Source of the DNA: Gordonia hirsuta DSM 44140 = NBRC 16056
Lineage (GTDB): Bacteria > Actinomycetota > Actinomycetes > Mycobacteriales > Mycobacteriaceae
Direction: 5' to 3'
DNA length: 64,000 nucleotides
NCBI RefSeq assembly: GCF_000333015.1
Contig: NZ_BANT01000014.1
Location: 62,001-126,000 of the forward strand
Shown: piece after piece, positions 5,760 through 6,038 of the stretch
Layout of the letters: each line of letters begins with the position of its first letter
Position numbering within the stretch: position 1 is the first letter of the stretch
Made by a program: the position numbers and the translations under genes
Notes under the pieces: model-generated
The model's database searches: none
What the model was told of the DNA's origin: nothing
What the model saw: the letters and a program-made list of their open reading frames with translations, nothing else

Positions 5760-6038
5760 ATGATCGGCGACGAGGAAGCCACCGCCACCATCGTCAACCG
5801 GCTGCGTCGTGCACACGGGCAGCTGGCCGGGGTGATCGGCATGATCGAGGACGGCCGCGACTGCAAGGACGTGGTCACCCAACTCGCTGCGGTCTCCCGC
5901 GCCCTGGACAAGGCCGGGTTCAAGATCGTCGCGACGAGTCTTCGGGAGTGCCTGATCGACCCGAAGGGCGCCGACGGAGACGGCGGCGAGAACCTCGATG
6001 TGGAGCAGCTCGAGAAGCTGTTCCTGGCACTGGCCTGA
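5760..6038 (+). CDS. CsoR/RcnR-family metal- or persulfide-sensing repressor
   Basis: A 92-residue DUF156 protein, an all-helical DNA-binding tetramer. The fold is clear from [23 protein letters not shown] and [23 protein letters not shown]. Copper CsoR proteins use Cys-His-Cys (C36/H61/C65 in M. tuberculosis). Here the two cysteines are kept as C35 and C64, but the histidine position is Ser60. That argues against classical Cu(I) sensing and leaves persulfide (CstR-like) or another thiol ligand as options. I start at ATG 5760 because GGAGAGG lies 8 nt before it; ATG 5733 is in frame but lacks a site. It probably represses its own operon through the G-tract palindromes. Confidence 0.85.

Follow-up and report, generated by a model that had tools for sequence, protein, structure and literature searches.

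A CsoR-family protein encoded in an MmpL–DUF302 operon as a probable sulfane-sulfur sensor with a scattered regulon

Sensor and Its Operon

The CsoR-family protein encoded at positions 5760–6038 of the window, a 64-kb stretch (G000:C64:62001-126000) of a 3.49-Mb genome, is very probably a repressor that senses sulfane sulfur (persulfide or polysulfide) and controls a scattered regulon. An earlier note on this DNA had proposed a CstR-like sensor of the persulfide type rather than a Cu(I) sensor, and strong support for this reading comes from the pattern of key residues, the operator motif, the regulon across the genome and the neighbouring genes in relatives. Judged from sequence, the sensor and the core of its regulon are of a known kind, and the extension is the near-exclusive link to MmpL, with DUF302 as a regular partner in the order: almost all copies of the MmpL subfamily occur together with a CsoR of the persulfide type, and frequently with DUF302.

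The operon is located on the + strand in the order two operators, MmpL gene, csoR, DUF302 gene and esterase gene (Table 1). The gene csoR is the second one and does not head the operon, as had been supposed, since the MmpL gene comes first. The operators expected in the region 3452–3499 were recovered as two exact ATACCn6GGTAT palindromes; operator 2 lies 32 bp from operator 1 and ends 13 or 16 nt 5′ of the MmpL start. These are the only strict matches in the window, where the reversed pattern has none. In addition to the degenerate third operator, exact sites 44–55 bp 5′ of csoR were found in 34 of 80 sensor loci (the best 80 of 536 relatives).

Table 1. Features of the operon in the window and operator places elsewhere in the same genome
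Feature	Position	Strand	Evidence or remark
Operator 1, ATACCCCTATGGGTAT	3452..3467		Exact ATACCn6GGTAT match
Operator 2, ATACCCCCTGGGGTAT	3484..3499		Exact ATACCn6GGTAT match
MmpL-family transporter, about 732 aa	3513..5714 (TTG 3513 or ATG 3516)	+	PF03176, E 6e-66
Degenerate third operator, ATACCCGGCGGGGCAT	5714..5729		One mismatch to the motif; 46 bp 5′ of csoR
csoR, CsoR-family repressor, 92 aa, C35/S60/C64	5760..6038	+	PF02583, residue pattern, regulon; proposed sulfane-sulfur sensor
DUF302 protein, 131 aa, C58 and C79	6058..6453	+	PF03625, E 3e-23, 82 bits vs. cut-off of 23
Lipoprotein esterase, alpha/beta hydrolase	6450..7373 (GTG 6450)	+	PF00756, E 5e-6, weak
Tandem operators, then small Cys-rich ORF, metallo-beta-lactamase/rhodanese fusion, TauE, rhodanese	C53		
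Tandem operators before SQR-like gene	C74:143677		3hyv, E 7e-35, below NCBIfam cut-off
Operator at CoA-persulfide-reductase-like gene with rhodanese	C74:105664		8a56, E 2e-135
Operator at peroxiredoxin gene	C37		
Operator at OsmC/transglutaminase-like genes	C66:25930		
Operator at gene of YgaP-like membrane protein with hemerythrin-domain gene/FolD	C66:60153		
Operator at methyltransferase gene	C25		Thiopurine- and TehB-type matches
Operator at short-chain dehydrogenase gene	C46		

Residue Pattern and Phylogeny of the Sensor

Membership in the CsoR/RcnR family (DUF156) is indicated by the PF02583 profile match (E 4e-23) and by the conserved first cysteine. In an alignment of 81 rows, comprising the best-scoring 80 of 536 relatives and the window copy (L002), every row has both C35 and C64 (81/81), and residue 60 is Gly in 75 rows, Ser in 6 and His in none; in the aligned PDB chains of InrS and Geobacillus CsoR this column is occupied by His. 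Cys-Gly-Cys was found in 20/20 further distant sensors picked from 17 other genomes of the order, and the lower-scoring paralogues carry His at this column in 19 of 20 cases and Tyr in the remaining one; both cysteines are invariant also in these two sets, hand-picked from the rows of the 81-genome search. Accordingly, the claim that C35 and C64 are kept and that Ser60 occupies the position of the copper-binding histidine holds. The protein lacks the Cys-His-Cys triad of Cu(I)-CsoR (Ser60; Gly or Ser in 81/81 rows) and has two cysteines without a histidine ligand, as sulfane-sulfur sensors of the CstR type do. Serine in place of histidine is thus correct for this locus, but not as the norm, Ser60 being a minor variant of the usual Gly60.

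A role of Ser60 as a special ligand was considered and dropped, since most sensors have Gly here and those with Ser can likewise be found in loci with sulfur genes; the Ser60-type variants L052, L055 and L072 adjoin SQR and TauE genes. The closest named locus among the matches listed is that of Gordonia alkaliphila (L003; 84% identity). One CsoR-family protein (L121, G031:C9:49683-49853) has Cys-Tyr-Cys, with Tyr at the His position; its host genome contains DUF302 and no sensor at ≥51% identity.

In the tree, a branch with support of 97/91 (bootstrap not settled) separates the sensors, as a single group, from the paralogues, and the solved CstR joins beside them at 69/50 only, on a long branch and likewise with the bootstrap not settled. 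The best PDB match of the sensor is 7mq1/7mq3, with 44.3 bits vs. 44.0 for the His-type 6ahx; the lead is 0.3 bits with the single sequence and about 1 bit in the profile search, and this ranking gives weak support for CstR likeness. These PDB entries are labelled as a copper repressor. In the available text of PMC8879271, 7mq3 is C9A N55A CstR of S. pneumoniae, a naming that fits, because Asn/Ala stands at the His column of the PDB alignment.

That the sensor still responds to Cu(I), through C35, C64 and another ligand, is very improbable. Such a role would agree with the PF02583 membership, with the solved CstR being hardly a better sequence match than the His-type chains, and with the ability of two cysteines to bind Cu(I). 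The operator is also related to those of copper CsoR/RicR proteins: according to the available text of PMC7533328, the ScCsoR motif was derived jointly with Geobacillus CsoR and the M. tuberculosis RicR site, and operators of this kind thus serve metal-type CsoR proteins too. However, His is absent from 81/81 rows and from 20/20 distant sensors, sulfur genes stand at several operator places, and a separate His-type RicR-like paralogue (L110, C32) directly adjoins the gene of a P-type ATPase with a heavy-metal domain, an arrangement from which a copper role of the sensor was judged unlikely. The operon of the sensor is not a metal-exporter operon, the P-type ATPase neighbour belonging to the C32 paralogue. 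The paralogue fits best the RicR model (135 bits, below the cut-off of 175). Its locus contains no strict operator and one 15-bp near-match, TACCCCCGGGGGGTA (L110:678), owing to which cross-talk between the sensor and the paralogue is possible.

Regulon in the Same Genome

The genome contains 12 exact ATACCn6GGTAT sites at nine places and none of the reversed-pattern control; the ninth place is the MmpL-csoR-DUF302-esterase operon. The metallo-beta-lactamase/rhodanese fusion at C53 is of the persulfide dioxygenase (PDO) type by architecture (3tp9 match, E 3e-101). Sites at C25, C46 and C66:25930 adjoin genes without a clear tie to sulfur. Common control of rhodanese, PDO, TauE and SQR genes is indicated at the level of sequence only, by the shared operators adjoining them. 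Two PF02583 genes are present in this genome, those of the sensor and of the His-type paralogue; the PDO operon at C53 therefore has no csoR of its own.

The small ORF at C53 (L105:5537-5719, − strand) encodes a Cys-rich protein of 61 aa (MCGPANCQICGK...) and is located directly 3′ of the tandem operators and 5′ of the PDO gene. Homologues were found in the operator stretches L155, L158 and L165, and searches of Pfam and NCBIfam gave no match above the cut-off. The operator between the genes of the YgaP-like membrane protein/hemerythrin and FolD (L107:3346-3669) is kept in a genome of the same genus (L152).

In the available text of PMC7533328, ScCsoR (SCO0620) of Streptomyces coelicolor represses PDO, rhodanese and TauE genes via ATACCn6GGTAT, and sulfane sulfur releases it, with persulfidation of Cys37 and a requirement for Cys66. 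Because Cys spacing, operator and targets match, the mechanism of ScCsoR is the best explanation here. The reduced repressor would bind the ATACCn6GGTAT operators; a persulfide or polysulfide would modify C35, with C64 resolving or stabilising the product, and the repressor would leave the DNA. Its release would switch on its own operon together with the genes of SQR, the PDO–rhodanese fusion, rhodanese, TauE, CoA-persulfide reductase, peroxiredoxin and OsmC.

Operators and Neighbouring Genes in Relatives

Strict operators were found in 73/80 sensor loci (best 80 of 536), amounting to 132 sites in 0.9 Mb vs. 0 for the reversed control. In a search of 81 genomes of the order, the sensor, defined by ≥51% identity and E ≤6.3e-20, is present in 33. 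A strict operator is present in 29 of these vs. 11 of the 48 genomes without the sensor (Fisher 5e-9), and in 20/23 sensor genomes outside the family of the window vs. the same 11/48 (Fisher 4e-7), p-values that serve as a guide only, given that the genomes are related and the csoR-adjacent site itself was counted. Genomes G063, G026, G033 and G042 contain the sensor and no strict site, and G028 contains five strict sites and no sensor. Across the 81 genomes, the reversed pattern matched 10 times, in 7 genomes, vs. 140 forward matches, so that single operator sites can be due to chance.

Of the 16 operator places in three of these genomes that do not adjoin the sensor operon, nine hold homologues of regulon genes vs. 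0 of 15 control stretches (19 queries, E 1e-6, 40% coverage); two of the nine positives are the small Cys-rich ORF alone, and seven places are without a homologue. Homologues of the peroxiredoxin, CoA-persulfide reductase, YgaP-like/FolD and methyltransferase genes are found at operator places of the genome of the same genus, and PDO, TauE or rhodanese homologues at those of the two further genomes.

In the vicinity of the sensor, DUF302 is encoded in 65 and MmpL in 43 of the 80 loci (best 80 of 536), with MmpL matches below 45% identity left out and one of the 43 a weak match (L030). Genes of PDO or TauE at ≥50% identity were found in 23/80 loci, ten of which also contain MmpL; the PDO and TauE queries came partly from counted loci (L028, L043), and some loci end at contig ends. 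By looser criteria, any sulfur or thiol gene is present in 41/80 loci, and none of the queried neighbour genes was found in L037 and L038. Genes for MmpL, DUF302, TauE, the sensor and PDO stand in one row in six Rhodococcus loci: L017, L025, L027, L028, L046 and L060. In two of them, an in-frame stop common to both interrupts csoR (L046:4418-4684 and L060:6001-6267) where Gln41 would be encoded, so that the operon may lack this copy of the repressor; MmpL, DUF302, TauE and PDO genes still adjoin.

An Rv2466c-like gene, encoding a mycothiol-dependent nitroreductase, accompanies the sensor in 12 of the best 80 of 536 loci, from Gordonia and Nocardia (L013:3896-4543, L009, L011, L032, L033, L041, L048, L056, L057, L059, L061, L081). 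A peroxidase of 743 aa (PF00141), presumably KatG-like, is encoded 3′ of the sensor in Rhodococcus (L007:4291-6519, L063, L066, L077); the profile match was run on the L007 copy, and the other three belong to the same cluster.

Both of these enzymes adjoining the sensor, as well as the peroxiredoxin, OsmC and hemerythrin-domain protein genes at operators, would also be accounted for if another thiol-reactive stress (hypochlorite, quinones, other electrophiles, NO) were sensed via the same two cysteines and the sulfur genes responded as repair; CstR is mentioned in papers on thiol-specific stress in S. aureus (available text of PMC6299908 and PMC10715087). This alternative is improbable, since PDO or TauE genes are found near the sensor in more loci than the Rv2466c-like gene, and the genome's own regulon includes SQR-, PDO- and CoA-persulfide-reductase-like genes.

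Comparison with Known Systems

The sulfane-sulfur sensor proposed here resembles ScCsoR, compared by its published description (available text of PMC7533328), in two cysteines 29 residues apart, the ATACCn6GGTAT operator, the PDO, rhodanese and TauE targets, and autoregulation. Unlike the four-gene circuit described there, in which MmpL and DUF302 do not figure, the regulator is encoded here in one operon with MmpL, and the PDO genes form an operon elsewhere without csoR. CstR of Staphylococcus and Streptococcus likewise has two cysteines, no histidine (Asn in the solved S. pneumoniae protein) and a sulfur regulon, but Asn corresponds to Gly/Ser here, the sequence is distant (44 bits), and the tree join is weak (69/50).

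TTHA1953 of Thermus thermophilus, also of the CsoR family, has two cysteines, binds DNA in a thiol-dependent manner, targets sulfur genes and showed no response to the metals tried; it differs in controlling sox sulfur-oxidation genes, and DUF302 and MmpL are not mentioned in the available text of PMC10318464. The SUL modules of Arthrobacter plasmids, known from genes, combine CsoR, sulfur dioxygenase, two rhodaneses, TauE and DUF302, with a major facilitator transporter in place of MmpL (available text of PMC6305408).

It had earlier been suggested that the response may be undescribed. This holds in part: a link between MmpL and persulfide was not found among the matches listed in the literature searches; the sensor, operator and PDO, rhodanese and TauE targets match those of ScCsoR (PMC7533328), and DUF302 is part of the Arthrobacter module (PMC6305408), as far as the available texts describe them.

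DUF302 Protein and Esterase

The two conserved cysteines reported earlier for the DUF302 protein were confirmed: C58 and C79 are invariant in 66/66 rows. The nearest solved structure is 1j3m, and one DUF302 match is present in the genome. DUF302 is encoded in 20/33 sensor genomes (G030 barely above the cut-off) vs. 2/48 genomes without the sensor; 20 of 32 copies are located within 5 kb of a sensor and 12 farther away. TT1751 (1j3m) and the DUF302 protein of sox clusters belong to the same family, and sox clusters are also a sulfur-gene setting; the sox-cluster protein differs in its 191 aa and assumed periplasmic location (available text of PMC5037610), vs. 131 aa and a proposed cytosolic location here. 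The two invariant cysteines, together with the sulfur settings in Arthrobacter modules (PMC6305408) and sox clusters (PMC5037610), described in the texts available, suggest a sulfane-sulfur handling protein, which would act through both cysteines in the cytosol.

The esterase gene overlaps the DUF302 stop codon with its GTG start. The lipid anchor claimed for its product is consistent with a lipobox, LTAC, in the translation. A core part in the operon was rejected for the esterase, found in 12/12 Gordonia loci and 0/68 other fetched loci, some of which end early; by its distribution it looks like a Gordonia add-on.

MmpL Transporter

PF03176 matches the transporter in two stretches, with Asp-Tyr pairs in both halves, which we take to be the proton relay. 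Since Asp268-Tyr269 and Asp624-Tyr625 are kept in 38/38 MmpL rows, the protein probably carries out active, proton-driven export. Among solved structures, its best homologue is the trehalose monomycolate (TMM) exporter MmpL3 (E 1e-42), which shares the Asp-Tyr pairs in both halves and differs in low similarity, length (about 732 aa here vs. 992 in the model) and genetic partners. Assignment as an MmpL3 equivalog was rejected at 177 bits vs. the cut-off of 1400 for NCBIfam NF052608.

Close homologues (≥49% identity, E ≤1e-100) were found in 12/33 sensor genomes vs. 0/48 genomes without the sensor, at most 13 candidates being scored per genome, so that a copy could be missed; at these thresholds, this MmpL is missing from 21/33 sensor genomes. 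A match in G076 (E 2e-101, 33% identity) was left out, and G045, where the match is in two pieces, was credited with a single copy. Of the 16 copies, 15 are located no more than 5 kb from a sensor gene, and one copy in G015 lies 472 kb away.

The transporter may expel a hydrophobic or thiol compound that is loaded with sulfur or damaged by it, and export of a compound derived from sulfane sulfur is put forward tentatively. A more specific version, in which this distinct subfamily would be a dedicated RND/MmpL exporter of reactive sulfur (thiols loaded with persulfide or polysulfide, e.g., mycothiol persulfide, or hydrophobic sulfur), loaded by DUF302 as a new two-Cys sulfane-sulfur carrier, is rather unlikely. 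Detoxification of sulfane sulfur in the cited literature proceeds by oxidation, transfer and sulfite export; if export by MmpL is true, mycolate-forming bacteria would have an additional efflux route in a transporter of this type controlled by a persulfide-type sensor, and a testable role would follow for an MmpL group and for DUF302, a family also found in sox clusters.

It is likewise conceivable, again as a tentative reading, that MmpL exports an envelope lipid and not sulfur, the regulon remodelling the mycomembrane under sulfur stress and the PF00756 esterase acting on the lipid in Gordonia. The relation to the TMM exporter MmpL3 is in line with this, and PF00756 also includes mycolyltransferases. 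The score far below the MmpL3 cut-off, the confinement of the esterase to Gordonia among the fetched loci and the tie of MmpL to the sulfur sensor (12/33 vs. 0/48 genomes) argue against lipid export.

Among the 37 loci with a long MmpL match, a strict site is located within 400 bp upstream in 32, and two strict sites spaced by 25–36 bp are present in 16.
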